Positions 1-44,563 of a stretch of DNA of 60,600 nt are shown in pieces (position 1 is the stretch's first letter; each line of letters opens with the position of its first letter). Position numbers and translations under genes: made by a program. The DNA is from a virus, in the IMG/VR virus record IMGVR_UViG_3300024428_000003, positions 1 through 60,600 of that record. One strand, given 5' to 3'. The notes under the pieces were generated by a model. The model made no database searches and was not told the origin of the DNA. It worked only from the letters and a program-made list of their open reading frames with translations.

Positions 1-266
1 AAGCGGGGACGACGAGGATCTTACAGTACATAAATTCGCAGAGGAAGCAATGTATAAATACATAGCTCACGCGATTTTAGCAACGAGAATCAATACTCCG
101 GAATACTTAGTTAATAGATTTAAAAGAGAATTAGCTGCCGCGAGACGTAATACAAAAATAAGATTATCAAATATTAAAATAGAGGAAATTGCTCAAGTTA
201 TGCGCAATAAGTCCAAAATCATAAAACACTAGAATATGCCAGAATTAATTCACACGTTTACGTCAG
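1..266. repeat. Terminal overlap of the circular assembly (copy 1; copy 2 at 60335-60600)
   Basis: Bases 1-266 match 60335-60600 except at positions 37, 139 and 264. The first two differences are synonymous third-position changes (TTC/TTT, GCC/GCT) in the tail gene that crosses the junction. The third changes TCA to TAA in the tenth codon of the next gene, very close to the contig edge. The simplest reading is a circular or terminally redundant phage genome assembled from a mixed population, unit length about 60,334 bp. It could instead be a true direct terminal repeat. Confidence 0.9.
2..232 (+). CDS. C-terminal 76 residues of the tail tubular/ring-like protein (partial)
   Basis: This is the 3' end of the 303-residue gene that is complete at 59655-60566. 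The reading frame is open from base 2 to the stop at 230-232. The protein sequence is identical to the tail of that gene, because the two nucleotide differences are silent. It should not be counted as a separate gene. It is followed after 3 bases by the large tail gene, as at the other end. Confidence 0.9.
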   Translation, partial: SGDDEDLTVHKFAEEAMYKYIAHAILATRINTPEYLVNRFKRELAAARRNTKIRLSNIKIEEIAQVMRNKSKIIKH

Positions 267-3200
267 GGAGAATGAACAAAGACCTTGATGAGCGTTTAGT
301 TCCAAATGGCGAGTATAGAGATGCTCTAAACTTAGAAATATCTACGTCTGACACAGGTAATGTAGGTGCTTTGCAAAATATTCAAGGTAATACGCCTAAA
401 ATATATAGCTATAAAAATCCAAGCACAGGTGTTTACACCGAATGGGGATCTGGTTATATAAACGCTTTAGTGTCCCCTGTTAAAATAGGTGAAATAAGAG
501 ATGCAATAAACGAAACCATATACTGGTTCATATCAAGTGTAGGAGTGAGTGCTATTGCGGAGTACGACCAAAAAACAGAAGTAGTTGTCCCGGTTTTAGT
601 AGACACACAAGGTATATTAAATTTTAGTAAAGATTATTTAATAACAGGTATAAATATAATTGAAGATTTATTATTTTGGACAGATAATCAAACTGAGCCT
701 AAGGTAATAAATATAAATGATTTTAAAAGCGCTACTTCCCCAACCCCGGGCTTAACGGGAAACTTTTTCACTCATACGGTATTCAATGGTAGAGATTTCA
801 TAGAAGAGGACATTACTGTTATAAAGAAAGCACCAACGGTCCCGCTTAGCTTACAGCTGTCTGAAACACGAGCAGTAGATCAAGACGGTAATCCAGCTAT
901 AGTTGAAACTACAACTCAACAAAATTTTGTAACAGAAGATCCTGGAGCAGCTACTGGTAACTGTGTAGATATTACTTGTAGAATTCCTATGCAAATAGGG
1001 GAGGAATTAACTTTAACATGGGCTAGCTCGCCTTATCCTTTTTATAGGGTAGGTGATATACTAACCTTAGACGGGTCTGCTGTAGATGATGAAAATTTTG
1101 AAAACGAATATCAAGTAAGAGTAGAAGTAATGGCTGTCCCTCCAGGGGTTACACAAACTTATGCTGAAGTAAAAATACTTGTAGTCCCGGAAACTGTACA
1201 AGATGTAGAAATATTTTGGGAGGTTAAAATTGATGAGCCACCATTTTTTGAATTTAAGTTTCCAAGATTTGCTTACAGGTACAAATATAAAGATGGATAT
1301 TATTCAACTTTTTCCCCATTCTCTGAAATAGCATTCTTACCTGGTGAATTTGATTACGAAACAAAAAAAGGGTATAATCTAGGTATGGTAAACCAGCTTA
1401 GGCAATGTATCATAGAAGGCTTTAGACCCTCTAATATACCTTTAGATGTTGTTGAAGTAGATCTTTTGTATAAAGAAAGTAATAGTACAAGCGTGTATGT
1501 AGTAGATACATTCATTAAGGGTGATGATATATGGAACGCTAACGAATTCAATATAGAATCTGAAATCATATCTTCAATATTGCCGTCTAATCAGCTATTA
1601 AGAAATTATGATAACGTACCTAGGGTAGCAAAATCTCAAGAAATTACCGGTAATAGAATAGTCTATGGTAATTATCTTCAAAACTTTAATTTAAAAGATC
1701 TGTTTAATATAGATGTATCTCCTACTTTAACACAAACTATTACTCATAATGACAAATGGGACTGTGACTACACTAATGGCAGCTGTGAGCATACACTAAC
1801 GCTGGCAGGTGAAAGTTTACCAAAAGTACCATTCCAATCTATAAAATCGCAGAGAACATATCAAGTAGGTGTAGTATTCCAGGATAAATATGGTAGACAA
1901 ACACCGGTTTTTACATCGGAATCTGCTGCAACAACATTACAAAAACCTGAAGCAATTGAGTATAACCAAATAACAGCTCAAACCGATGGAAATGTCCCTA
2001 TTGGTTTCGAGGGTTTTAGATACTATATAAAAGAAACATCTAACGAGTATTACAACCTAGCTATGGACAGGTGGTACGATGCTGAAGACGGTAATGTTTG
2101 GATAAGTTTTCCTTCTGCAGAAAGAAATAAAGTTGACGAATCTACGTTCTTAGAGCTAAAGAAAAGACATGACAAAGACGAATTTGTATCAATACCTGCT
2201 AAATACAAAGTAGTAGCTATTTCAAATGAAGCGCCTCTGTTTTTAAGAAAAGTAATAAAAGTTGCAGGTAGTGTTGACGGCAGTGATAATATACTTGACA
2301 CTGGAATACCTCAACCAGATTTTACAGCTATAGATATAAAAGAAGATGCCCTAGAGGCTAGCACAGCTAGATCTATATTAGATTCAACGCAAAAGCAAAG
2401 AATAGTAAGAGTATATACAACTACAACAAGAAGTAATTGGTATAATGTAACTAGTATTCAAACCGACGGCAGTAACACGCTAAGAATAACAATAGAGGGT
2501 AAATTTGGGGACGACATGTCTTTCACTACCGACGCTAATGGTAATAAAGTTGTTGGGTTAAATGTACAATTTGCTACAGAGGATTTTGATGATAAACCAG
2601 AATTTGAAGGTAGGTTTTTTATTAAACTATATAAGGATTCAACTTTACAGGAATATATATTATCATCTATTAACTCAAATAATTATGCAGTAAAGCAATC
2701 TTTAAAAATGGGTTTTATTGGCACTGGTGTTAATAGAAGTTACATTACCGGAGGCTGGGGTTATACCGGTTGGTTCGTAGATCAAGGGTCTGTAGCTAAT
2801 GCCAACGGCTCTACTGGCGCTGCTTATACTGTAGGAGGTAATGATATTACAGTATCTTTCACGGGTATATGGCCACAAGGTGCAGATTTTAATGTAGGTA
2901 GGACAGTCTACAATCAATACAGAGATGCTGTAGATATACTTTTACAAGTTGGCGGTCTTTTTAGATTTGAGGAGGATCCTGATCAAGTTATATACGAGAT
3001 AACAGCGACCAAAGAATTTCAAAGAGTTAGGAATTACGAAAATAATTCAAAAAGAAACAAATACAACAAGGGATCAAACAAGAGAACTAGATTTCAACTT
3101 AAAGTTAAACCTATTGATACAGTAGCTAACGGTACTGGTTTATTTCAAGGACCCGCTGGTTGGTCTTTTCCTAGAGGAGGCAATCGCCCTATGAATGATG

Positions 3201-6067
3201 CAAGCTCACCTCGCATGGAGTTTTTAACCGTGCTTCCTGACACAGTAACTTTTACTAGTGATAATCCAGGTATATTTGAAACAGAGCCTAAAGAATCAGC
3301 TGAATTAGAATTATATTATGCGGCTTCTAAGGTTTACCCAATGAGTGAGTATGGCAACCCTCATATACTAGACTGGCATAATTGTATATCTTTTGGTAAC
3401 GGGGTTGAATCAGACAGGGTACGTGATGATTACAATGCGGTCACTATAGACAATGGCCCTATAGTTTCAGCCACTTTAAAAGAGCCTTATGCTGAGGAAA
3501 GAAGATTAACAGGTTTAATATATTCTCAAATATTTAATTCAACATCTGGTGTAAATAACCTAAATCAATTTATACAAGCAGAAAAAATAACTAAGGATCT
3601 TAATCCTATATATAGCTCTATACAAAAATTACATTCAAGAGATACCAATTTAGTGGCTTTATGCGAAGATAAAATACTTCGTATACTCGCTAATAAAGAT
3701 GCGTTATTTAATGCGGATGGTAACTCTAATGTTACATCTAACAATAATGTATTAGGGCAAGCAGTTCCTTACGCAGGAGAATTTGGCATAAGCAAAAACC
3801 CTGAAAGTTTTGCTTCGTATGGATTCAGAACATATTTTACTGATAAAAACAGGGGTGTTGTTTTAAGATTATCAAATGATGGCCTTGAAGATATATCTAG
3901 GTATGGTATGGGTGACTTCTATTCTGATAACTTAAAGCAATCTCAATACTTATGGGGCTCTTTTGACGATGATAAAAAAGCTTATAATTTATGTTTAGAT
4001 GGACTAACTGATGAATGGGCTAGTAGATTTCAAGATAGATTTTTTATAAAAGGTAATTGGTCAATATATACTCCTAATAATACAGTGGTATCTTTTAAAG
4101 AAGAAGTGAAAGGCTGGGAAAGCAGAAAAACTTTTAGTACAGAAGGAGGTATAAGTTTAAATGATAGATATTATACTTTTAGAAACGGTAGAATGTGGGA
4201 GCACAGAACAGCTGATTCTGTAAGAAACAATTTCTATGGCACTCAATATGATAGTTCAGTTGATTTCTTAATCAATGAAATGCCTAACGTAGTAAAAAAG
4301 TATAAGACTTTAAATTACTCAGGTAGTAAATCAAGAGAATATGTGTATAGCAATGATCAATACTCTAACCTATCTTTAGCAGAAGTAGAGGCTTTACAGT
4401 TGCAAAGTTTAACTTCTGAAACTTTATTGCACGAGGGTTGGTACACTCAGTACATGAACACAGATCTTCAAAATGGGTTTATAAAACAATTTTTAGATAA
4501 GGAAAACAAATATTTCCAATACATAAAAGGAGAGGGCAAATATTTCACATCCAACGATAATAATAATTTAGATTCACAGGAGTTTCCAATGCAAGGTATC
4601 GGTAGAGCCAATAATATAATAGCTCCTCCGGTAACTGTATTTAATGTGCATGTATTCGGAGAACCTGATTGTGCCATTCAAATACAACCCCCTAATGCTG
4701 ATAATAAATATTATGAAGTTTTAGAAGATTGCACATCTTGTACCGTATTGACATTGACAGGTAGCGACCCACAAGGCTTCCCACTTACATACGAGATTGC
4801 ATCCGACAACACTCTAAATGGGGTTTTAGGCGCTGTTAATGGAGACGAAATAATTTTTACGCCTAATGTATTAAATTACTATGGAGGAGCCGGCAGTTTC
4901 ACTTATAGAAGTTATAATGGATCTAGATATAGTTCTCCTGCTACTGTAGATGTTGAAATAATATCAGTTCCAGAAGGGCCTGTTATAAACTCAACGCCTC
5001 CAGCTGGTCCTTTTACCGCTGGTGATCCATATAGTTGGACAGGTATAACAGCAATAGATCCTGATCATACTTTATCAGAATTGGGGTGGAGCGTATCTAA
5101 TTTACCTTCCACTTTACAGTTGACTACTACAGGGAATGGTTTTACAGGAACAGCATCAATAACAGGGACTGTACCACAGGGCACATTCTCATACACTATA
5201 ACTGTTACTGACCCAGATAATCTTTCAGATAGTTTGCTAGTCGAGGAAGATGGCTTAGTTGCAGCTTTATTAAATCTAGATTTTGTGGCGTTTACAGGAG
5301 GCTCTGTGGTACCAACCACCTGGACAGATCCAAATGATCTTACATTTGTAGTTCCTCAAAAACAAAAAGCATCCAGTGGTCATTCGTGTGGTAGAGGTAC
5401 TTATAGACTGGTAGCTAACAAGCATGTGAATGGAGGTGTTGTAATTGGAAGACTCTATGTTGGTAACAGAGGAACCACTTATTTCGATTCACTTACCTTA
5501 GATGCTAACGGTAATCCAAATAGCCGAACTGGTGATCCTTATTCTCACCCACCCGGGGTGGGCAACCCAATACCAAGTGCTGTAGCTCAAGGAAATATTG
5601 ATGGACTAGGAAATCCCACCAATGAGCTGTACGCTAATAATGAGCCTGAATGGGGTAATGATCCAAATAATAGTTTACAAAAATATGTCACTCCAGCTTA
5701 TGGTAGTAACAAACAAAACTATAGAATATCGTATTTAAGTTTAACCGAGGACCAAGCCCAAACTGTAGCTAATGATTTTCCTGACACTTTTAATAATTGC
5801 TATGTTACATTTACATTTGAACCTGATACTTATAATGCAAATGGAAGTTTTAATACTCACGCGGACGCAGTTCAATTTTCAGTGATTCAGAAAGGTTCAA
5901 CTGCTGGAGAGCAAGGAGGTCCTGAAATATTTTCAGGAGGACTAGGTACATCTGGCAATCAATGTCAAACTGGGCAGCCTTGCGATCCGGCTCTCTTTGC
6001 TTATGTATCATTCGACGTTTGCACAGGCGCGTATTTACCTGATTACGATCCACTTAATCCAACTTAA
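236..6067 (+). CDS. Giant tail protein (1943 aa) with C-terminal Ig/cadherin-like domains
   Basis: The N-terminus (FTSGRMNKDLDERLVPNGEY, residues about 7-26) is a motif I recognise from large tail or tail-stabilisation proteins of marine podoviruses and crAss-like phages. About 1400 residues of beta-rich sequence follow. Residues about 1478-1585 and 1585-1670 look like tandem Ig/cadherin-type domains (repeated proline-rich linkers and 'TVTDPDN'-type strands), a typical place for host-surface adhesion. The end is glycine- and cysteine-rich. It sits directly after the tail tube-like genes and before fibre-like genes, so a tail hub, muzzle or nozzle role is likely. The exact role is inferred from position and the N-terminal motif only. 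Confidence 0.75.
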   Translation: MPELIHTFTSGRMNKDLDERLVPNGEYRDALNLEISTSDTGNVGALQNIQGNTPKIYSYKNPSTGVYTEWGSGYINALVSPVKIGEIRDAINETIYWFISSVGVSAIAEYDQKTEVVVPVLVDTQGILNFSKDYLITGINIIEDLLFWTDNQTEPKVININDFKSATSPTPGLTGNFFTHTVFNGRDFIEEDITVIKKAPTVPLSLQLSETRAVDQDGNPAIVETTTQQNFVTEDPGAATGNCVDITCRIPMQIGEELTLTWASSPYPFYRVGDILTLDGSAVDDENFENEYQVRVEVMAVPPGVTQTYAEVKILVVPETVQDVEIFWEVKIDEPPFFEFKFPRFAYRYKYKDGYYSTFSPFSEIAFLPGEFDYETKKGYNLGMVNQLRQCIIEGFRPSNIPLDVVEVDLLYKESNSTSVYVVDTFIKGDDIWNANEFNIESEIISSILPSNQLLRNYDNVPRVAKSQEITGNRIVYGNYLQNFNLKDLFNIDVSPTLTQTITHNDKWDCDYTNGSCEHTLTLAGESLPKVPFQSIKSQRTYQVGVVFQDKYGRQTPVFTSESAATTLQKPEAIEYNQITAQTDGNVPIGFEGFRYYIKETSNEYYNLAMDRWYDAEDGNVWISFPSAERNKVDESTFLELKKRHDKDEFVSIPAKYKVVAISNEAPLFLRKVIKVAGSVDGSDNILDTGIPQPDFTAIDIKEDALEASTARSILDSTQKQRIVRVYTTTTRSNWYNVTSIQTDGSNTLRITIEGKFGDDMSFTTDANGNKVVGLNVQFATEDFDDKPEFEGRFFIKLYKDSTLQEYILSSINSNNYAVKQSLKMGFIGTGVNRSYITGGWGYTGWFVDQGSVANANGSTGAAYTVGGNDITVSFTGIWPQGADFNVGRTVYNQYRDAVDILLQVGGLFRFEEDPDQVIYEITATKEFQRVRNYENNSKRNKYNKGSNKRTRFQLKVKPIDTVANGTGLFQGPAGWSFPRGGNRPMNDASSPRMEFLTVLPDTVTFTSDNPGIFETEPKESAELELYYAASKVYPMSEYGNPHILDWHNCISFGNGVESDRVRDDYNAVTIDNGPIVSATLKEPYAEERRLTGLIYSQIFNSTSGVNNLNQFIQAEKITKDLNPIYSSIQKLHSRDTNLVALCEDKILRILANKDALFNADGNSNVTSNNNVLGQAVPYAGEFGISKNPESFASYGFRTYFTDKNRGVVLRLSNDGLEDISRYGMGDFYSDNLKQSQYLWGSFDDDKKAYNLCLDGLTDEWASRFQDRFFIKGNWSIYTPNNTVVSFKEEVKGWESRKTFSTEGGISLNDRYYTFRNGRMWEHRTADSVRNNFYGTQYDSSVDFLINEMPNVVKKYKTLNYSGSKSREYVYSNDQYSNLSLAEVEALQLQSLTSETLLHEGWYTQYMNTDLQNGFIKQFLDKENKYFQYIKGEGKYFTSNDNNNLDSQEFPMQGIGRANNIIAPPVTVFNVHVFGEPDCAIQIQPPNADNKYYEVLEDCTSCTVLTLTGSDPQGFPLTYEIASDNTLNGVLGAVNGDEIIFTPNVLNYYGGAGSFTYRSYNGSRYSSPATVDVEIISVPEGPVINSTPPAGPFTAGDPYSWTGITAIDPDHTLSELGWSVSNLPSTLQLTTTGNGFTGTASITGTVPQGTFSYTITVTDPDNLSDSLLVEEDGLVAALLNLDFVAFTGGSVVPTTWTDPNDLTFVVPQKQKASSGHSCGRGTYRLVANKHVNGGVVIGRLYVGNRGTTYFDSLTLDANGNPNSRTGDPYSHPPGVGNPIPSAVAQGNIDGLGNPTNELYANNEPEWGNDPNNSLQKYVTPAYGSNKQNYRISYLSLTEDQAQTVANDFPDTFNNCYVTFTFEPDTYNANGSFNTHADAVQFSVIQKGSTAGEQGGPEIFSGGLGTSGNQCQTGQPCDPALFAYVSFDVCTGAYLPDYDPLNPT

Positions 6068-10186: not shown

Positions 10187-13100
10187 ATGGAAAAATTATA
10201 CGAGGCTTTAAATAAAAGCGGTAAATATACTAAGTCATTGGAAGACTTTAAAACTCAGTTTAGCTCTACGGCAGGGCAGGAAAAATTATATGGTGCTCTT
10301 AAATCTTCTGGTGATTATACTAAATCATTCAGCGATTTTAGCACACAATTTTTTAATACTGAAGAATCAGTAAAGACAAACGACTCTGCGGCTGCGGATC
10401 CAAGTGTGGAGTCAAACGCTACGGGATCCAATTGGGTAGATGGTTCGTCGGAGCAACTAGATAGTGGATTTGTATCAGAAAATAATAGAGGTAAAAGAGA
10501 AAAACTAATAGACGACGACTATAGTGGTACTATGATATCTAGGATGTTTGATGACGATCCTAACAATAGTTGGGCTGATGGCACAAGTGAATCTTTTAAG
10601 GATTCTTGGAAGGCCTGGGAAAAAAATAATCCTGTGTTCGCGAAAGCGGTTAAGGCGGACAAGAGCCTGACGCTAGGTAAGACGGCAAATATACCTGATG
10701 TTTTAGGCCCGCTTGCACGAGCTATATCAAACTGGGTGCGAAAAGACGACGCTGAAGACGAGGCCGCTATAAACAACAACCCTGAGCTTCATGAAAAATA
10801 CAGAGGGTATAGAAATGACGTTAGTATAGAAGAGCAGGCTGAGCAGTTTTATAACAGCAACGACTTAGACTTAAATGACACAAACTCTAATGCAGCATAC
10901 AATGATGATAAGCGCACTGATTTTATTGAAGAGTATTATATAAACAATCCTGAAAGCAAGGTGTTATTAGAAGAAGCTAACGTTAATGCTAGTGACTTCC
11001 AGGGCTTTTTGAATAGAAAAGGATATATAGACGAGTTCGATAAGCAAAAAGAAGCTGGAGCTTATGAGCAAGACGACTCTAATTTACCTGACAATTTAAC
11101 CATGCAGCAGGATCTTAAATCGTATTTTGACGAGTACTTAATTGAGACAGCTAGTAGAAATGTTGAAAGAGTAGTATTAGAAGAAATTAAAAATAACCCG
11201 TCTGAATACAAAAATATGAGTTTGCCTGAAGCGATGGGAGCTGCAGATGTTAAGCTAATGGAGGATCCTGAGAAGTACAATTACGGTACTCATTTGGATT
11301 TTAATAAATTAGAAGATTGGAATTCTAATAATTGGGATTCAATAAACAAATATAACGCTGAGCAAATTAAAAACATAGAAGATGCTCAACAAGCAAGAAT
11401 TGAAGAGACCGAAACCGGAGTTAAAACCGGTCTTTATGGCAGCGGAAGAACCTTAGTAGGCGCTTTAAATAAGCTAGGTGATGGTTTAGAAGACGTTTAC
11501 GATTTTGTAAAAATGGACGGTAAAGTGTTTGGTTGGGTGTTGCCAATTATTGGAGAAGGAAGACAAGCTAACGAATTTAGAGACTTAAGAGACAAGTCAA
11601 ACAGAAGAGCTTTAAGAGGAGAAGCTAATATAAATTACTTATATGCTGAAGGCAAGCAAGTTACTTTAAATGGCAAAGAGTATATAAAGCAAGCTAATGG
11701 TAGCATCAAGCAAATAACAAACGGATTTGATGTTTCTAAAACTATTTCAGATAAAGACAGAAAGGCTATAGATGATGCTATCGCAAATGGTGATTACATT
11801 TACGGAGCTGACTTTGATGGTTTTGGTGGTAGCATTATAGCAGGACAAACTATAGGTGAATTAGCAATACAGATTGTTGGACAAAAAGGCACAGGACTTT
11901 TAAGGAGAGCAGCTTCTTTAAAATATCTAGGTAAAGTTAAAAACTTATCCAAAGCTAGATTAACTAGAATGGAGTTAGGGTATAATAAAACTAAAGGAAT
12001 TAATTCTAGAGGTATTAATTACGGTGGAGTAACTGGGGGAGCAAAAGGAACTTGGGACACATTTGGCAAAAAGATACCTTTAGGTATAAGCAAAGGAATG
12101 GCTGATGCTGTAATATTCCAATCCGGGTATGGAGCAATGACTGGCTATAATCAAGCTAAGACAGCTGCACTGGATGCTGGTATGAGCATGGAAGAATCTG
12201 AAGCTATTGCTAATGAGGCAAGTTTAGGTATGGCTGCGCTATTTGCTTTAACAACACCAATAAACCCTAAGACTGGGCTTATAGATAAGATATTTAAAGG
12301 TACTGGAAAAAATTCCACAGCAAGCTTATTTAGACAGCTTATTAATGCTTCTGGTAATGCTGCAGGTGTAAGAAGAAACTTCGGAAGAATAGTAGCAGCT
12401 CCTCTGCAAACTAAATTAGCTAAATTTGGTGCGATTGTAGCAAGCGAAGGCGCTAAAGAAATGGTGCAGGAAAATGTACAACAAATAGGTGAAGCTGCTT
12501 TAAATAAAGTTTTGAACAAAGGTATTGGAAAAGATCTTTTAAAAGACACTTACACTTACGAAGACTTTGTAAATACTTCAGCATTGTCGTTTGCTGCTGG
12601 CGGATTTGCTGGTGGGGTTGGTAGCATATCAACTTTAACTGGCAGAAAAAACATAATGAATGACAGTGAAAAAGTTCAGAAGTTAAGGCAGCTAATACAA
12701 AACCCTGCTAAAGTTGAAAAGATATTTGATTCTTGGGTAAAAAACGGGGATATAACAAGAAAAGAAGCTGACGGCTTAAATCAAGAGATACAGAAGTTTG
12801 GTAGAAATATAAACAAAATGCCTAAGTTTCTATCAGATAGACGCATGTCAACAGAACTTTTAAAAGTCATAGACTCTCAGGAAAACATAAGTAAATTAGA
12901 AAAGCAAAGAAAGAACGCAATACCAGGAGAACAGGCCCTAATAGATGAAAAGCTTAAAGTTTTAAAAGAACAACAAACAAAATTGTTGGTAGACGCGCAA
13001 AACACATTAGATGCAGATAATAAAGTCTTCGAAGGCAAGTTTACAAAAAACACCGCTGCTGTTGTTAACTTTGCTAGAAAATTAGGATTTGGAGAAAGTA

Positions 13101-16100
13101 AGCTTCCAAGAATATTTGAAAACACCGACGCCTACGTAACCGCTATATATAGAGCTTTAAAAAGAAAAGAAAGATCTTATTTAAAAGCTGTAAAAGAAGG
13201 TAAGATAAAAGCTGACCCTGATTTTAAACCCCTAACAAAAGCTGAGGTTGCAAAACAAGCAGCTGAATCTGACGGAGTATATTTAGGGGCGGGTAGTCTT
13301 TTTATAAACAAAGAGATGGCTCGACAAACAGGTAAATGGACGGTTACTTCACATGAAATTATCCACCCTATACTTAACTCTTTAGTAGGTAGCTACTTAA
13401 ATCAGAAAGCAAACTACGATGACCTTATGAAGATTCTGCCTGCTAAGGTTAGAAGATCAATTAATAAAAAAATAGCGCAAACACAAGGTAAAGAAAAGCA
13501 AGCTATAGAGTTTTTAAACTATCTTTCTGATGCTGTTATTTCTGGTGAATTAGATTTTGACCCTTCTTTGTTTGATAAAATAAGATTGTGGTTTAACAAC
13601 ATAATAAGCAAGTTAGGCCTTAAGTCTGGTATTGAAAATCATGAAGACCTACATTTTGACGATGCCCGTGGTGTATACAACTGGCTTAAAGAATTTACAT
13701 CAGGTTTAAAAGAGGGCGGAGAAATAAGTGATAAAGCTGTAGAGGCTGTACAAAAAGCAGAAACAAAAGCAAATAGACTAGTTTCAGAAGATCCAGGATT
13801 AAGAGATCCTGAGAATGCAATGCAATTTTCTTCTAGTCAAGAAATATTAAATCTTGAAAATGCTTTAGATGATGCTTTAGATGCTTTTGCAGAAGACCCT
13901 AATAATCCTACTCTTGAAAAGAAAGTAGAAGAAGCGGAAAGATTACTAGAGGAAGCCGAAGAAAGGGTTGCTTCTGGTAGATCAGCTATTAAACAAGAAG
14001 CTAAACCTAAACCAAAGCCTAAAAAGAAAGTAGAGGCTAAGCCCGTTAGAACAACAGACTTAGGCCCTAGAGATCCAAAGTCTAAAAAGATTATGGACAC
14101 TTACAATGAAGGTATGGAGGGTGTCGAAAGAACAGAGTACAAGGCTAGTAAGCCATTACCAGCATCTTTAGAGAAAAAGCTAATACCTCTTTTTGAAGGG
14201 TATATTAATACAATAGTACAACAAAAGTTCAAGCAAGTTGGACCTGAAGCATTAGAGTTCCAAGATGCTTTGTCTATATTAAGAGCTGAGGTTGCTAGCG
14301 CAATACGTACATTTAATCCCGCTGTCAACAAAGATTTAGCAGGATATGTAAAAAGATACGGTGTACAAGCTAGGCAATCTTTAATGTTCGCAGACGCTAA
14401 CAAAGAATTTACTAGTGATATATCAGATGCTAAGGGAGTGGTCGACACTAATGATACACCGTCTATTGATCGTAGTGGCACAGTAGAAAGAGGCCAACGT
14501 ACTTTCGATGAGCTAGACATAGTAGACGAAGATTTAATAAACGATATTAGAACTGAGTTAGAAAAAGAAATAAGAATAAGAGTACAAAAAGGTACTTTGT
14601 CTGAAACTTTAGAAGTTAAGAAAGGTAGAGACACTTATATAGTTTCTTGGTTAGAAAACTATATACAAAAACAGTTATTTAAAAAGTTAATGAAAAAGCT
14701 AGGGGCTATAACAGGAGTATACCCTAATGCTGTAATCCCTGGATCTTATATAGACTTTCTAAACGATCCAAATACTTTTGATATAATAACTAAAGCTTTG
14801 CCAATTAAAAGCATTAAGAAGAGCTATGGCAAGTTATTTCCTCTTGAAAAAGTAGGTAGAGAAGTTACCCCAGAAGGCAACCCTGTATATAGAATTAAGA
14901 AAATAGAAAAAAGAGATTTCTTAACTTATTTTGTTAAAGGTAAAAAGTCTGCTGTACTAGAAAGACAGAAGCAATTATTTAGAGAAATACTTGAACCATT
15001 GGCAAAACAGGTTGTAGCAGACTATGCAACCCCCTCTAATTTAAGCGATTTAAAATCTATACAGGAATTGGCTCCAGAGAATTCTTTGGATGTTATTAAC
15101 GATATTGTTATAGAAGCACAATTAGCTAACCTAGAATCTAAGATAGATAGATACAAAGGCGAGAAAGAAGGTTTTGATATAATACAGTTTAGTAAAGAAT
15201 TAAACCAAAAAGACACTATAGATGTATTAGAGCAATTGGCTCAAAGAGAAAATATTACCGAGTTAAGAAAAGGTGTCTTGCAGGAGCTCATTAATAAAGT
15301 AACCAACGGACAAATCAGAACAACAAAAGACCTGATTAAAGCTGTTCATTCTATTGGAAAAGACCAATTAAGCACAAGAGCATATAGAGAATATGTTGTT
15401 AATGTATTATCTAAATTGCAATTTACACTAAGAACACCTAGTGTAGCTAACATAGTTAATGAAGGAGTAAAAGAATTTACAAAAATTTATAAGTACCAAC
15501 AAAAAATAATTGGTTATAATTATTCTACAACTAAGGTTAAGCGAGATTTTGACGAAGCTACAGATGATAAAAGCAAGGTTGAAGCTATAGTTAATTACTT
15601 AAATATAACAAGTAGATCCATACGTACCTTAGGGGTTGACGGTAATACAACTAATGAAAAAATATTTAATAATATATTAGTTCCTGCTTTTGGAGCGGAT
15701 CAATTATCAAAACTAAAAATAGATTTATTAAAAGAGTCTTATAAAGATAAAGACGGTAAAACTAGATTTAAAACCTACATTACAGTTAATAAAATAAAAC
15801 TAAAAGGATTAGTTCAAATAACAGAATTAAAATCAAACTTTGAAAATAATATTGATCAAGTTAACAAAGAGGCAATATTAGTAAGAAATTATTTAATTGA
15901 TGAAATTAACAGAGCCAAGCAAAATAACGAGGTAGATGCTGTAATTGGATTTATAAATTTATCGACAGCAGATCAAAGAGGAGCTGTTAGGAAACTAAGT
16001 TCTACTGGTATGTTTATGGTAAATACGCCAATAGCAAAATTAATACTGGAGCATGAAACTACTGCTAAGCAGCTAACAGAAGCTTTGGTTAAATATGCTA

Positions 16101-19033
16101 AAGGTGAAATTGATTTTAAAGTATTAACAAAAATACTCAACGGAGCTAAAATAAATTTAATACCTAAAAAATTAGATTTAATATTAAATAAACAAGGCTT
16201 AGACGGTATCGGGAGATACGAAACAGATCTTATTAAAGAAGAAATAAGCAAATTAAAAGCCAGCGGTAAATTAAAGTTTACTCAATATTCTAAAAGTAAG
16301 CTTGCTTTTGATCCATTTGATATGGCAGACGTAGTGACTATGTCGTTGTTTGGTGAAACTAAAGCCTTCAAGAACAGACAAGGATTTGAAAGAACTTATA
16401 AATATTTGAATCCATCCCAGCAAAAGCAGGTTCAGGAGGAAATGAAAAAACATAATTTATTTCAATTTAGCAAAACGCTTAATCAGGCTAAAGCTATGTC
16501 TAATAGAATAGACGCTCCTAATAAAGGTATAAGCGTATGGGATTTCGACGATACTTTAGCTACAACTAAGAGCAACGTTTTATATACATTGCCTAACGGT
16601 ACAAAAGGGAAAATAAATGCAACTGAATTTGCTTTACAAGCAGACCAATTAGCGGCACAGGGAGCTGAATTTGACTTTAGCGAGTTTAGCAAGGTTATGA
16701 ACGGTGCAAAAGGCCCAATGTTTGACAAAGCTGTTGCTCGTAATAAAAAGTTTGGTAATTCCAATGTCTACATTCTAACCGCTAGACCGGCTAATTCAAA
16801 ATATGCTATACATACGTTTCTTAAGGGAATCGGTTTAGATATTAAATTAGAAAATATATTTGGACTAGGTGATGGCACAGCTATTGCTAAAGCTAAGTGG
16901 GTAATTGGAAAAGTAGCTGAAGGTTACAATGATTTTTACTTTGCAGATGACGCATATAAAAACGTACAAGCGGTACAAGAAGTTTTAGAACAAGCAGACG
17001 TTAAGTCTAAAGTTCACCAAGCTAAAATACAATTTGCAAAAAGCTTAAATTCTGATTTTAATAATATTATACAAGATGTTACTGGAATAGATGCTGATAA
17101 AAAAATATCAGGTAATAAAGCAAAAATGCTTGGCAAAAAGAAAGGTAGGTTCAAATTCTTTTTACCACCCTCTGCAGAAGATTTTGCTGGGTTGTTATAC
17201 AAGCTAACTGGTAAAGGCAAAAAAGGTGAAGCGCATCAAGCTTGGTTTAAAAAATCATTGTTTGATCCATTTGCAAAAGGTATTAGAGAATTCGAAAGCT
17301 ATAAGCAAAACGCTACAGCTATTGTAAAGCAATTAAAGAAAAGCATAAAAAATATACCAGCTGGGTTAGGTAAGATTAATGAGACTGGTTTTACAAACGA
17401 AGCAGCAGTTAGAGTTTACTTGTGGACTAAAAATGGATTTGATATTCCAGACCTAACAGCAGAAGAGCAACAAGAATTGATAGAGGTAGTTAACAACAAC
17501 CCTAAATTGAAAAAATTTGCAGATCAATTAGATAAAGTGTTGGATGGTTATCCAGAGCCCCAAGATAGTTGGGTGGCTGGAACTATAACTACAGATGCTA
17601 TCAACATGATCAATACTGTAAAAAGAGCGGAGTTTTTAAAAGAGTGGCAAGAAAATGCAGACGCTATCTTTACAAAAGATAATATAAATAAACTAAGATC
17701 CCAATTTGGGGATAGCTATGTAGAAGCACTACAGGACATGCTCTACAGAATGAAAACAGGCCGTAACAGACCATCTGGCGCAAATAAGCTTACTAATCGC
17801 TTTATGAATTGGGTTAATGATTCTGTAGGTACAATAATGTTTTTCAATACTAGATCAGCATTGCTACAAACTTTGTCTATTGTAAACTTTATAAATTGGC
17901 ACGATAACAACCCTATACAAGCTGCAAAAGCTTTCGCAAACCAAAAACAATTTTGGAGTGATTTTTCAATGATATTTAATTCAGACTTTTTGAAACAAAG
18001 AAGATCTGGTTTAAAAAATGACGTTAATGCGGATGATATTGCTAGCGCTGCTGAAAATGAAACAAATAAAGCTAAAGCTGTGTTTGCCTCATTGTTAAAA
18101 GCAGGTTTCTTACCTACGCAGATAGCGGATAGTTTTGCAATCGCAATGGGTGGAGCTTCATTTATTAGAAATAGAATAAATATGTACGTGGCCGAGGGAA
18201 TGACTAAAGCAAAAGCTGAAGAGCAAGCTTTTTTAGATTTCCAAGAAATTGCAGAAGAAACACAGCAATCCTCAAGACCAGATAGAATATCGCAACAACA
18301 AGCGAGCCCATTAGGACGTATTGTATTAGCCTTTGCGAATACCCCTATGCAATACATGAGATTATCTAAAAAGGCTTTCTTGGATCTTAAAAACGGACGT
18401 GGAGACGCTAAAACAAATATAACCAAGATCATATATTATACAGCTGTGCAGAATATTATATTCTCTAGCTTACAAGCAGCTTTATTTGCGGTAGCATTTG
18501 ATGACGACGAAGAAAAAGCAAAAAACAAAGAAATCAGAGTCGCTAATTCTATGTTAGATTCCATCTTACGTGGAACTGGTATTTATGGAGCTATAGCTTC
18601 TACGATTAAGAATATAGTTGCGGAAATTTATACACAAAGTGAAAAAAGCCGACCTGATTATACGGTTGCTGCTCAAAGAGCTTTAAGCATATCTCCACCT
18701 ATAGATTCTAAGATGCGGAAGATAATGTCTGCAGCTAGAGCTTTTAGTTATAAAACTACTAGAGAGAAAATGGTTGGGTATGGTTTAGACAACCCCGCAT
18801 ATTATGCAGTGGGGCAAATACTTTCAGCAGGGTTTAATTTACCTGTTGATAGATTGATTAGAAAAGCTGACAACATAAGAGTAGCGCTTGATAATGAAAC
18901 TAAGATGTGGCAATCAATAGCACTAACATTAGGCTACAGCCAATGGGATCTAGGACTGATTGAAAGCGGAAAAAATAAAAAGAGTAATAAAAAAGGCTGG
19001 CACAATGTAAAGCGCGGCAGCTGGAAAGACTAA
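10187..19033 (+). CDS. Giant polyvalent virion protein (2948 aa) with zincin and HAD-phosphatase motifs
   Basis: Seen in the sequence, in order: two tandem copies of a short motif at the N-terminus (about residues 4-25 and 34-55, LY-AL--SG-YTKS--DF-TQF); a helical region; an HEIIH zinc-protease signature (H1056, E1057, H1060); a Lys/Pro-rich linker near 1265-1300; a HAD-type phosphatase module with DFDDT (D2119, D2121), an ILTARP motif (T2198) and the acidic pair D2254/D2255; and a C-terminal part with a hydrophobic segment near 2750-2775. Large proteins of this type are known as polyvalent proteins, carried in the virion and injected to act on the host. It is nearly 15% of the genome. Ejection with the DNA is inferred from its place after two internal-protein candidates. 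Confidence 0.8.
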   Translation: MEKLYEALNKSGKYTKSLEDFKTQFSSTAGQEKLYGALKSSGDYTKSFSDFSTQFFNTEESVKTNDSAAADPSVESNATGSNWVDGSSEQLDSGFVSENNRGKREKLIDDDYSGTMISRMFDDDPNNSWADGTSESFKDSWKAWEKNNPVFAKAVKADKSLTLGKTANIPDVLGPLARAISNWVRKDDAEDEAAINNNPELHEKYRGYRNDVSIEEQAEQFYNSNDLDLNDTNSNAAYNDDKRTDFIEEYYINNPESKVLLEEANVNASDFQGFLNRKGYIDEFDKQKEAGAYEQDDSNLPDNLTMQQDLKSYFDEYLIETASRNVERVVLEEIKNNPSEYKNMSLPEAMGAADVKLMEDPEKYNYGTHLDFNKLEDWNSNNWDSINKYNAEQIKNIEDAQQARIEETETGVKTGLYGSGRTLVGALNKLGDGLEDVYDFVKMDGKVFGWVLPIIGEGRQANEFRDLRDKSNRRALRGEANINYLYAEGKQVTLNGKEYIKQANGSIKQITNGFDVSKTISDKDRKAIDDAIANGDYIYGADFDGFGGSIIAGQTIGELAIQIVGQKGTGLLRRAASLKYLGKVKNLSKARLTRMELGYNKTKGINSRGINYGGVTGGAKGTWDTFGKKIPLGISKGMADAVIFQSGYGAMTGYNQAKTAALDAGMSMEESEAIANEASLGMAALFALTTPINPKTGLIDKIFKGTGKNSTASLFRQLINASGNAAGVRRNFGRIVAAPLQTKLAKFGAIVASEGAKEMVQENVQQIGEAALNKVLNKGIGKDLLKDTYTYEDFVNTSALSFAAGGFAGGVGSISTLTGRKNIMNDSEKVQKLRQLIQNPAKVEKIFDSWVKNGDITRKEADGLNQEIQKFGRNINKMPKFLSDRRMSTELLKVIDSQENISKLEKQRKNAIPGEQALIDEKLKVLKEQQTKLLVDAQNTLDADNKVFEGKFTKNTAAVVNFARKLGFGESKLPRIFENTDAYVTAIYRALKRKERSYLKAVKEGKIKADPDFKPLTKAEVAKQAAESDGVYLGAGSLFINKEMARQTGKWTVTSHEIIHPILNSLVGSYLNQKANYDDLMKILPAKVRRSINKKIAQTQGKEKQAIEFLNYLSDAVISGELDFDPSLFDKIRLWFNNIISKLGLKSGIENHEDLHFDDARGVYNWLKEFTSGLKEGGEISDKAVEAVQKAETKANRLVSEDPGLRDPENAMQFSSSQEILNLENALDDALDAFAEDPNNPTLEKKVEEAERLLEEAEERVASGRSAIKQEAKPKPKPKKKVEAKPVRTTDLGPRDPKSKKIMDTYNEGMEGVERTEYKASKPLPASLEKKLIPLFEGYINTIVQQKFKQVGPEALEFQDALSILRAEVASAIRTFNPAVNKDLAGYVKRYGVQARQSLMFADANKEFTSDISDAKGVVDTNDTPSIDRSGTVERGQRTFDELDIVDEDLINDIRTELEKEIRIRVQKGTLSETLEVKKGRDTYIVSWLENYIQKQLFKKLMKKLGAITGVYPNAVIPGSYIDFLNDPNTFDIITKALPIKSIKKSYGKLFPLEKVGREVTPEGNPVYRIKKIEKRDFLTYFVKGKKSAVLERQKQLFREILEPLAKQVVADYATPSNLSDLKSIQELAPENSLDVINDIVIEAQLANLESKIDRYKGEKEGFDIIQFSKELNQKDTIDVLEQLAQRENITELRKGVLQELINKVTNGQIRTTKDLIKAVHSIGKDQLSTRAYREYVVNVLSKLQFTLRTPSVANIVNEGVKEFTKIYKYQQKIIGYNYSTTKVKRDFDEATDDKSKVEAIVNYLNITSRSIRTLGVDGNTTNEKIFNNILVPAFGADQLSKLKIDLLKESYKDKDGKTRFKTYITVNKIKLKGLVQITELKSNFENNIDQVNKEAILVRNYLIDEINRAKQNNEVDAVIGFINLSTADQRGAVRKLSSTGMFMVNTPIAKLILEHETTAKQLTEALVKYAKGEIDFKVLTKILNGAKINLIPKKLDLILNKQGLDGIGRYETDLIKEEISKLKASGKLKFTQYSKSKLAFDPFDMADVVTMSLFGETKAFKNRQGFERTYKYLNPSQQKQVQEEMKKHNLFQFSKTLNQAKAMSNRIDAPNKGISVWDFDDTLATTKSNVLYTLPNGTKGKINATEFALQADQLAAQGAEFDFSEFSKVMNGAKGPMFDKAVARNKKFGNSNVYILTARPANSKYAIHTFLKGIGLDIKLENIFGLGDGTAIAKAKWVIGKVAEGYNDFYFADDAYKNVQAVQEVLEQADVKSKVHQAKIQFAKSLNSDFNNIIQDVTGIDADKKISGNKAKMLGKKKGRFKFFLPPSAEDFAGLLYKLTGKGKKGEAHQAWFKKSLFDPFAKGIREFESYKQNATAIVKQLKKSIKNIPAGLGKINETGFTNEAAVRVYLWTKNGFDIPDLTAEEQQELIEVVNNNPKLKKFADQLDKVLDGYPEPQDSWVAGTITTDAINMINTVKRAEFLKEWQENADAIFTKDNINKLRSQFGDSYVEALQDMLYRMKTGRNRPSGANKLTNRFMNWVNDSVGTIMFFNTRSALLQTLSIVNFINWHDNNPIQAAKAFANQKQFWSDFSMIFNSDFLKQRRSGLKNDVNADDIASAAENETNKAKAVFASLLKAGFLPTQIADSFAIAMGGASFIRNRINMYVAEGMTKAKAEEQAFLDFQEIAEETQQSSRPDRISQQQASPLGRIVLAFANTPMQYMRLSKKAFLDLKNGRGDAKTNITKIIYYTAVQNIIFSSLQAALFAVAFDDDEEKAKNKEIRVANSMLDSILRGTGIYGAIASTIKNIVAEIYTQSEKSRPDYTVAAQRALSISPPIDSKMRKIMSAARAFSYKTTREKMVGYGLDNPAYYAVGQILSAGFNLPVDRLIRKADNIRVALDNETKMWQSIALTLGYSQWDLGLIESGKNKKSNKKGWHNVKRGSWKD

Positions 19034-35169: not shown

Positions 35170-35190
35170 ATCTATTTAATTTAAATTTAG

Positions 35191-35269
35191 TGGAAGTGGA
35201 CAGAATCGAACTGTCTTCCGTAGTAATTCCTTTGCAGGCTTTTTACTACGTCAAAACCATATCACCCCC
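35191..35269 (-). ncRNA. tmRNA-like tRNA-like domain lacking an mRNA-like domain (79 nt)
   Basis: Read 35269 to 35191 on the minus strand. It has a 7-bp acceptor stem (GGGGGTG with CACTTCC) containing a G3-U70-type wobble at the third pair, the alanine identity signal of tmRNA. The D-loop text ATATGGTTTTGACG fits the tmRNA 5' consensus and has no D-stem. An 8-bp perfect stem (CGTAGTAA with TTACTACG) follows in the position of helix P2, capped by a short loop. The T-arm is GACAG-TTCGATT-CTGTC, and the discriminator is A, with CCA not encoded. There is no 5-bp/7-nt anticodon arm. A normal tmRNA would insert about 280 nt with a tag frame in the P2 loop; here the loop is 16 nt. Family assignment by eye only. 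Confidence 0.5.
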
Positions 35270-35660
35270 GTGTGCTACAAGCTAGGGTAATAACTATTGA
35301 GTGTTTTTAGATTCCTGAGTTCATAACGATCCCTCACCAGTTCACTTGCATTATCACTCGCATTACTACTCGATACTAACTTGTAGTTATTTGTAACTAG
35401 TGAGGATTCGAACCTCATACCCGTCGGTAGTCATAGTCATTGTAGGCTCGTGAAAACGTTTACCTACTTCAGTACTAAACCTAACCTAGTCGCCTCTAGC
35501 TATTCACTTATGTATTAAAGAGTTGCGGGCTGTATACGGCCACCTTTAACCTAATTAAGCTACTCGTCTAGTTTGTTATTGAAAGCGTGATCGGCGTCTA
35601 ATACATTTTCGTCATTAGATATACCGGCCGGTCCACCGATGTTTGCTTCCTTATTACATA
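35270..35660 (-). other. Non-coding structured leader with tRNA-like fragments
   Basis: No credible gene in about 390 bases downstream of promoter d. A T-arm-like hairpin occurs at about 35399-35423 (TGAGG-TTCGAAT-CCTCA), and a short perfect hairpin TAGTTA-CAAA-TAACTA follows it. A D-arm-like string (TAGCTTAATTAGGTTAAAGG) lies at about 35543-35562. Another hairpin is GTAGG...CCTAC near 35441-35466. Near the 3' end TATTACCC can pair with GGGTGATA of the tmRNA-like element, an alternative fold. I could not assemble a full tRNA from these parts, so they may be decayed tRNAs or one larger RNA. An open frame without ATG also runs through the first 100 bases. Confidence 0.45.
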
Positions 35661-35696
35661 TATATTATCGATCGGTGATCGTAATACGTTTGCAAT
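35661..35696 (-). promoter_or_regulatory. Phage promoter, copy d (structured RNA)
   Basis: Minus strand: ATTGCAAACGTATTACG, 10-bp spacer, GATAATATA. It has no gene start within 400 bases downstream; instead it faces the structured RNA region. Confidence 0.85.
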
Positions 35697-43006: not shown

Positions 43007-44563
43007 ATGGAAACAAACAATCCAAGCGATATAGTGAAGACACTGACATTCGGTGAACCTGCTAGAAATGAAATAATGCAAGGCGTTGATAAATTAGCAA
43101 GCGCAGTGAGGTCCACTTTAGGAGCCTCGGGAAAATGCGTAATATATGAAGATGCTTTGGGTAGACCGGTAATTACAAAAGATGGTGTAACCGTTGCGGA
43201 AAGCGTAGTCTTATTACATCCGGTTGAAAATATAGGAGCAACCTTAATAAAGGAAGCTGCTAGCAATACAGTAAGAGAGGCTGGTGACGGTACCACGACG
43301 GCTACCGTACTGGCTGATTCTCTGTTAAAAATAGCTAATGAAAGTTTAAATGAAGAAAAAGTTAGAGGTATTAAAGATGGCATTATTAGTTGTGCTAACA
43401 AAGTTAAGATACATCTTGATAAGTCCAGTACTCCAGTTGAAGGTGAAATGTTACGGAGTGTTGCTACAATTAGCTGTAACAACGATGTTGAGCTTGGAAG
43501 AAAAATTGGAGAAGCTTACGAAAAAGTTGGAAGTAATGGAGTCGTATTAATGGAAGAGTCTGAAACGAACGAAACTTACGTGGAATTCGTTGAAGGAGTA
43601 CAATTTGATTCAAAATTAAAATCAATACATTTAGCGACAGACAAAGACAAGAGATCTGCTGTTTTAGATAACCCCTATGTGCTTATTGTTTCCTCTCCTA
43701 TTCCTAATATAAGAAGAATACAAAACGTCTTAGAACACGTTATAAAGAACAAAAGAAGTTTATTAATAGTTTCAGAAGTAGAGCAACAACCTTTAGCTAC
43801 TTTGATATCAAATAAAGTGAAAGGTAATATTAAGGTAAACATTATAGATACACCTGGTTTTGGGCCAACAAGACAAGATACTATAGAAGATTTAGCTATA
43901 TTGACAAATGCTACTATAATAGATGAATCACTTGGAGATGACTTAGATTTAATAGATCCTAATGTATTAGGTGAAGCCGTTAAATCAGTCACTGACGAAA
44001 AAGGCACAGTGCTGCAAGTTGAAACAAATGGAGATATTTTAAATGAAAGAATATCTTTTGTTGAAAATAAGATTGCAGATGAGACTAATCCTTTCTTTAG
44101 AAAAAAGCTAGAACAAAGATTATCTATGCTAACTGGTAAAGTTGGTATTATAAGAGTTGGAGCTGATTCCAAAGTGGAATTAAAAGAAAAGAAAGATAGA
44201 GTTGAGGATGCCATTCATGCGACAAAAGCCGCTTATAAAGAAGGTATTGTTGCTGGTGGAGGTGTAGCTTTACTAAATGCTTCACAGAAAATTAAACCTG
44301 CTAACAGGGGTGAGGAAATATTGCTAGAAGCAATCAAAGCACCTTACTACACCATATTAGACAACGCGGGTATTGTAGAGATCAAAAAGCTTACTATTAA
44401 AAATAGAGGTATTGATGTTAAGACTGGCAAAGAAGTTAATATGATTAAAGCAGGTATTATAGATCCGGTTTTGGTTACAAAATCGGCGCTAAAAAATGCA
44501 GTAAGTGTTGTAACAACAATAATATCTGCAGACTGTGTAATTAGTAATAAAAGATTAGCATAA
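43007..44563 (+). CDS. groEL: Phage GroEL-like chaperonin (518 aa)
   Basis: Clear chaperonin with ITKDGVTVAE (D59), AGDGTTTATVLA (ATPase D94), KKDRVEDAIHATKAAYKEG (near residue 400, catalytic Asp) and VAGGGVALL. It is about 30 residues shorter than bacterial GroEL and lacks the Gly-Gly-Met tail, ending CVISNKRLA. GroES is encoded immediately downstream, its ATG overlapping this stop (TAATG). The pair should fold phage proteins, most likely the capsid or giant virion proteins. An 18-bp A/T palindrome-like repeat lies just before the start. Confidence 0.95.
   Translation: METNNPSDIVKTLTFGEPARNEIMQGVDKLASAVRSTLGASGKCVIYEDALGRPVITKDGVTVAESVVLLHPVENIGATLIKEAASNTVREAGDGTTTATVLADSLLKIANESLNEEKVRGIKDGIISCANKVKIHLDKSSTPVEGEMLRSVATISCNNDVELGRKIGEAYEKVGSNGVVLMEESETNETYVEFVEGVQFDSKLKSIHLATDKDKRSAVLDNPYVLIVSSPIPNIRRIQNVLEHVIKNKRSLLIVSEVEQQPLATLISNKVKGNIKVNIIDTPGFGPTRQDTIEDLAILTNATIIDESLGDDLDLIDPNVLGEAVKSVTDEKGTVLQVETNGDILNERISFVENKIADETNPFFRKKLEQRLSMLTGKVGIIRVGADSKVELKEKKDRVEDAIHATKAAYKEGIVAGGGVALLNASQKIKPANRGEEILLEAIKAPYYTILDNAGIVEIKKLTIKNRGIDVKTGKEVNMIKAGIIDPVLVTKSALKNAVSVVTTIISADCVISNKRLA

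Follow-up and report, generated by a model that had tools for sequence, protein, structure and literature searches.

The locus studied here raises two questions: what kind of RNA lies in a gap of ~530 bases that holds no open reading frame (ORF) of at least 60 aa (35170-35696), and what might it do for the virus that carries it? The window, by which we mean the whole 60.6-kb IMG/VR virus record analysed, encodes a terminase with 62% identity to that of the uncultured podovirus MW202828, 45% to Flavobacterium Elemovirus and ~37% to Cellulophaga phages, together with a primase-helicase, a ribonucleotide reductase and GroEL (homologue at 43007-44563). It also has two giant ORFs (236-6067 and 10187-19033; 1943 and 2948 aa). 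The minus strand of the gap, from 35269 to 35188, encodes an 82-nt tmRNA tRNA-like domain (TLD) without a tag-coding region, comprising 79 nt up to the discriminator A73 and then an encoded CUA. The ATG of a 188-aa ORF starts 18 nt past the TLD; used as a query, this downstream gene returned no viral relatives. Read along the minus strand, the TLD runs GGGGGUG AUAUGGUUUUGA CGUAGUAA AAAGCCUGCAAAGGAA UUACUACG GAA GACAG UUCGAUU CUGUC CACUUCC A CUA, with the following parts:

35188..35269, minus strand: whole TLD, 82 nt, from the RF00023 match and a family of 78 sequences
35263..35269, minus strand: acceptor 5′ strand GGGGGUG, with G3 at 35267, pairing with 35192-35198
35251..35262, minus strand: 12-nt D-loop-like linker AUAUGGUUUUGA, without a D stem and with the tmRNA 5′ consensus as aligned to RF00023
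35243..35250, minus strand: P2 helix 5′ strand CGUAGUAA, with two-sided changes in 8 of 8 pairs
35227..35242, minus strand: 16-nt P2 tip AAAGCCUGCAAAGGAA with a mini-hairpin CCU-GCAA-AGG and no tag frame
35219..35226, minus strand: P2 helix 3′ strand UUACUACG, from P2 covariation
35199..35215, minus strand: T-arm GACAG-UUCGAUU-CUGUC, whose 5-bp T-stem has all five pairs in 76/76 family members
35192..35198, minus strand: acceptor 3′ strand CACUUCC, with U70 at 35194 and the discriminator A73 at 35191

The 7-bp acceptor contains G3·U70 and a further G·U at pair 4, and the P2 tip sits where the tag domain and pseudoknots would be. Free folding of the minus strand alone returns the acceptor, an 8-bp P2 with a small tip and the T-arm (-25.9 kcal/mol). 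Using Infernal, the Rfam tmRNA model RF00023 spans the TLD end to end (57.3 bits, E 7.3e-20; gathering score 47 bits), in an alignment that covers model positions 1-374 but skips ~304 of them, which take in all of the tag and pseudoknot region. Fold and model bear out the anatomy described in a first-pass annotation (an acceptor with a G-U third pair, no D-stem, an 8-bp P2, a 16-nt loop and a T-arm) as well as its view of a tmRNA-like RNA without tag coding. The coordinates it gave, 35191-35269, run exactly from acceptor to discriminator and leave out the encoded CUA.

All the hallmarks of a tmRNA TLD are present, namely G3·U70 with A73, A8, a GG linker without a D stem, a P2 helix in place of the anticodon arm, and a T-arm. 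An odd or canonical tRNA, which the annotation had marked for exclusion, can be dismissed, as RF00005 gives nothing at E≤10 and ARAGORN calls neither a tRNA nor a tmRNA. A mitochondrial-type tmRNA is rejected by RF02544, which likewise gives nothing at E≤10, and a two-piece (permuted) tmRNA by the contiguity of the 5′ and 3′ halves in normal gene order. With 82 nt, ~304 model positions gone and no tag frame above chance, the element is not a complete trans-translating tmRNA. Nor is it an attP or integration fragment, for neither end is truncated and the two covary. We therefore describe it as a one-piece tmRNA reduced to a predicted alanine-accepting tRNA-like domain. As a phage-borne TLD with no tag CDS it is of the CDS-less kind known from mycobacteriophage DS6A, a likeness drawn by description.

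Relatives were gathered from IMG/VR, yielding at least 78 different elements, each some 73-106 nt long. An exact 21-mer search added four contigs and an RF00023 search of terminase relatives four divergent copies, and a loose pattern (base 3 free, C or U allowed at 70) returned at least 120 stretches. Removal of ordinary ssrA fragments left 76 different elements in which the acceptor was complete; ssrA 3′ fragments (AATAG...CCACCA; L103, L158 and others) were set apart by their unpaired acceptors. Rescanning the retrieved loci with the acceptor sequence left free gave 78 elements. Members of the B and C types score 34-38 bits against RF00023, under the cut-off, with E values of 1e-10 to 1e-12.

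The window’s terminase occurs in 40 of 50 tested carrier contigs at 71-90% identity. The carriers that lack it (for example L142, L116 and L119) bear other phage replication genes, so TLD-type RNAs probably exist in other phage lineages too. Among 43 terminase-bearing contigs sampled regardless of the element, many of them short fragments, four have a TLD, and it is absent from the 67.6-kb relative G038 and from MW202828; the TLD is thus not essential to the clade. SmpB was absent from all 49 viral carrier contigs searched, and a host partner would therefore be needed. A scan of genome contigs with a narrower pattern produced one match, in an actinobacterial metagenome-assembled genome (L216) that encodes the bacterium’s own SmpB. 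Named phages searched at the DNA level with two family sequences gave short T-arm matches only.

Conservation across this family singles out alanine identity. G3·U70 is present in 77 of 78 members, window included, in the scan that left the acceptor sequence free, and the sole exception is an A-U pair in a tandem extra copy (L215). The adjoining pair 4-69 is variable among 76 members (CG 31, GC 22, AU 20, UA 2, GU 1). Because G3·U70 persists while its neighbour varies, alanine identity is under selection against changing surroundings; conservation of the G-U pair in relatives was a check that the annotation had proposed. The discriminator A was imposed by the scans, and its constancy is no independent evidence. 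At the 3′ end, 63/76 encode ACUA, not ACCA.

The P2 helix is maintained by compensatory change, and a failure of the stem bases to covary, named beforehand as a ground for refutation, was not seen. In family A (11 aligned sequences), two-sided changes occur at all eight P2 pairs, 97.7% of P2 cells pair, and the covariation score is 0.416 versus 0.129 when shuffled, with none of 500 shuffles reaching the observed values. For the B/C families, with coordinates kept fixed, 145/185 cells of the first five P2 pairs are paired; random reassignment of partners yields 75.6 ± 6.5, and a one-base slide abolishes the signal. These covariation and shuffle tests reject a chance P2. In most members 10-12 nt separate the acceptor from P2 and 3 nt separate P2 from the T-stem, and the linker GG is invariant across family A. 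Inserts contain an Ala-to-stop frame in 20 of 76 cases versus 25.6 in shuffles, which is not above chance; with no such frame conserved either, even a very short (2-aa) tag is rejected.

The annotation had missed both the exchange of P2 tips and the setting of the TLD, which is the last unit of an array of structured RNAs that precedes it on the minus strand:

35275..35386, minus strand: structured RNA unit with closing stem CUACAAGUUAG...CUAGCUUGUAG, read by eye, directly upstream of the TLD
35391..35491, minus strand: second anticodon-less tRNA-like RNA, found as 14 distinct sequences across contigs
35496..35572, minus strand: further structured unit CUAGACGAGUAGCUUAAUUAG...ACAUAAGUGAAUAGCUAG, which recurs upstream of TLDs

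The second tRNA-like RNA has a 6-bp acceptor (GACUAG/CUAGUU), a cassette stem, a small V-arm-like hairpin UACCGACGGGUA (UACC-GAC-GGGUA), a T-arm (UGAGG-UUCGAAU-CCUCA) and a 3′ ACAA, without G3·U70. Its 14 sequences lie beside or near TLDs and share the acceptor (A/G)ACUAG/CUAGUU with 3′ ACAA or ACUA; their insert is swapped among phages, and in L157 the RNA is only ~55 nt. The unit at 35496..35572 recurs in L085, L157, L087 and others, its inside partly exchanged, and the inner cassettes of this unit and of that at 35275..35386 are common to several phages. Large structured phage RNAs of the ornate GOLLD/ROOL type are known, GOLLD often beside tRNAs; in the nine array loci searched, however, only tmRNA and tRNA models of Rfam matched, and the non-TLD units had no match.

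P2 tips are hypervariable between phages, yet long ones reappear on more than one outer stem (for example L152 and L194, with similar cassettes). The tip of one phage’s TLD can also be found letter for letter, over 15-43 nt, in other phages, there within RNA units that are not TLDs. In the window, the unit directly upstream of the TLD holds the 34-nt cassette UGAACUGGUGAGGGAUCGUUAUGAACUCAGGAAU (35344-35311, 42 nt upstream of the TLD), which is identical to the P2 tip of the TLD of another phage (L136). Of 35 placed cassette occurrences, 31 lie 0-400 nt upstream of a TLD, a few of the contigs being near-duplicates, and the chance expectation for 15-mers in this search is ~5.6 matches over all 4.3 Mb. 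On this evidence P2 tips are interchangeable cassettes, common to the TLD and to neighbouring array RNAs, and we found no description of such exchange in the literature searched. Some phages carry two TLDs with different P2 tips (L154/L230 of record G081, and L150; also L215).

Among known systems, the window TLD shares with the one-piece bacterial tmRNA of RF00023 the G3·U70 pair, A8, the GG-UU-GAC linker, P2 and the T-arm, and differs in having no tag frame, resume codon, P5 or pseudoknots (~300 nt). Long tag inserts, which the annotation had named as a contrary finding, occur nowhere within the family and only in distant phages: Cellulophaga phages phi38:1 and Calle_1 have a full-length tmRNA (362 nt, 87 bits) with the tag AQIEANMEAVNAILNLEVAVGV. 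Their terminase is ~37% identical to the window’s and their tmRNA shares with the TLD the linker UGGUUUUGAC and 3′ ACUA, but it keeps the tag that the window’s lacks. The Calle tmRNA was already reported (PMC8776804); that of phi38:1 (NC_021796.1, 26803-27164, minus strand) is unannotated, and the hypothetical ORF gp041 is annotated across it on the opposite strand. Mitochondrial (RF02544) and plastid CDS-less tmRNAs have lost the coding region likewise, but they are organellar, and since the RF02544 model does not match, the mitochondrial comparison made by the annotation holds as an analogy only; phage and bacterial one-piece tmRNAs appear to be the nearer relatives. The simplest origin would be a one-piece tmRNA, taken from phage or host, whose coding region was lost.

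The closest precedent for function is DS6A, which like the window carries a phage tmRNA with little beyond the tRNA-like domain. According to the passages on it in PMC11915505 and PMC4131195, which cite Mao 2009, the TLD-only tmRNA of DS6A acts in E. coli as an inhibitor of the endogenous tmRNA; the inhibition, known for DS6A only, is reported whether or not the RNA is chargeable and is perhaps due to SmpB titration (Hudson 2014, PMC4131195). The decoy role suggested by the annotation agrees with this precedent. DS6A is a single actinobacterial phage, and those passages mention no family, covariation or cassette exchange, whereas the window family, compared with DS6A by description, belongs to another phage clade, is diversified and has a distinct P2 domain. 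CDS-less tmRNAs are thus already known as a kind from one phage, plastids and mitochondria. What appears to be new is a phage family, large and diversified, that conserves alanine identity and whose P2 cassettes can be exchanged.

Because the DS6A RNA inhibits in E. coli, we take an alanylated blocker of host trans-translation as the most likely function, a reading drawn from DNA evidence that we favour with belief and doubt about evenly balanced. Once transcribed, the TLD would be processed by host RNase P and tRNA 3′-end enzymes, receive CCA, and be charged by AlaRS through G3·U70 and A73. Host SmpB and EF-Tu would bind the charged RNA, and the complex would compete with host tmRNA. At stalled ribosomes its alanine would take over the nascent chain, with no resume codon, tag or stop on offer, so that infection would dampen the host’s trans-translation and proteolytic tagging, to the presumed benefit of the phage. 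The parts that the TLD keeps are those used by AlaRS, EF-Tu, the T-loop elbow and SmpB; the parts it has lost are those that make trans-translation productive. The RF00023 match, which spans the TLD but lacks the tag region, the G3·U70 and P2 evidence, and the want of a tag frame and of SmpB in viral carriers are all consistent with the blocker, as is DS6A itself.

Other observations fit it less well, and they bear on the alternatives. As TLD-only inhibition is reported with or without charging, an SmpB-binding decoy leaves the strict alanine identity unexplained, and G3·U70 would be more than a simple SmpB sponge requires. That strictness suggests instead a natural importance of charging, and so points towards ribosome entry rather than mere SmpB binding. 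The clade can also do without the TLD, the 3′ end encoded by most members is ACUA and not ACCA, and a pure decoy does not predict a hypervariable P2 tip swapped among RNAs. The swapping is what the main rival explains: the TLD would be a stable, self-processing frame displaying the tip, the cassette would do the work by binding a factor from host or phage, and the other array units would display the same cassettes. The verbatim tips concentrated just upstream of TLDs, far above chance, the similar cassettes on unlike outer stems and the contigs with two differently tipped TLDs all speak for this, but a mere frame need not keep G3·U70 or SmpB-type linker geometry, and family A retains one short tip (AAAG..GGAA) in many phages; we hold it to be possible, at something like half the weight of the blocker. 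The two may both be true. Slightly more credible than the frame, and still tentative, is a modular small-RNA system in which anticodon-less tRNA-like and other closed frames carry exchangeable hairpin cassettes that move from frame to frame and from phage to phage, perhaps tracking host targets or defences; its frames could be the Ala-charged TLD and the second tRNA-like RNA, the latter chargeable by a synthetase that ignores the anticodon.

Conserved alanine identity would equally suit a rescue function without tagging, in which the alanylated TLD and host SmpB help to clear stalled ribosomes and leave phage proteins untagged, as supposed for tag-less mitochondrial tmRNAs. The mitochondrial CDS-less tmRNA persists alongside SmpB (Nawrocki 2025, PMC11915505), and complete tmRNAs survive in distant phage relatives, so trans-translation can be of use to such phages. 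Without a stop codon, however, the ribosome would not be released by termination, and the one TLD-only phage tmRNA described as tested, that of DS6A, inhibits; we regard rescue as unlikely. A role away from the ribosome, as an anticodon-free alanine carrier for a transferase or a sink for AlaRS or EF-Tu, would account for strict alanine identity with no anticodon and for the second anticodon-less RNA in the same array, but it would make the tmRNA-specific A8, GG linker and P2 geometry superfluous, and is improbable. Least probable by far is a functionless relic, either an integration-site fragment or a dying tmRNA: ssrA-integrating phages do carry 3′ fragments, and AATAG... 73-mers turned up as false positives, but the gene is intact at either end, the acceptor and P2 show covariation, and G3·U70 is under selection in dozens of diverged phages, so that covariation refutes a relic at the level of the family.

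A TLD-only tmRNA could formerly pass as a curiosity; it is now widespread among uncultured viruses that form a clade related to the Flavobacterium and Cellulophaga phages, where it probably interferes with host ribosome rescue. Phage attack on trans-translation thereby becomes testable, with charging predicted to matter, and the family offers natural minimal tmRNAs for study.

Several minor observations accompany these loci. In L215 (79-260) the two TLDs adjoin without a spacer, and the first has A3-U70. A 72-nt tRNA-like RNA with no D arm and an enlarged loop (L227, 1501-1572; Tenacibaculum phage Gundel_1, 73061-73132) is not called by ARAGORN and adjoins tRNAs. A recurrent RNA unit UAUCACGGG...GCACGGUGGAAGUCCGAUCG...GAGAUAAC lies upstream of the TLD in L178, L156, L187 and L141. 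Another unit, UGUGCAG-CGAAUAAAUAAC...UGA-CUGCACA, recurs upstream of the TLD in L125, L133, L138, L160, L088 and L186, and its CGAAUAAAUAAC segment is also found inside some TLD P2 tips.
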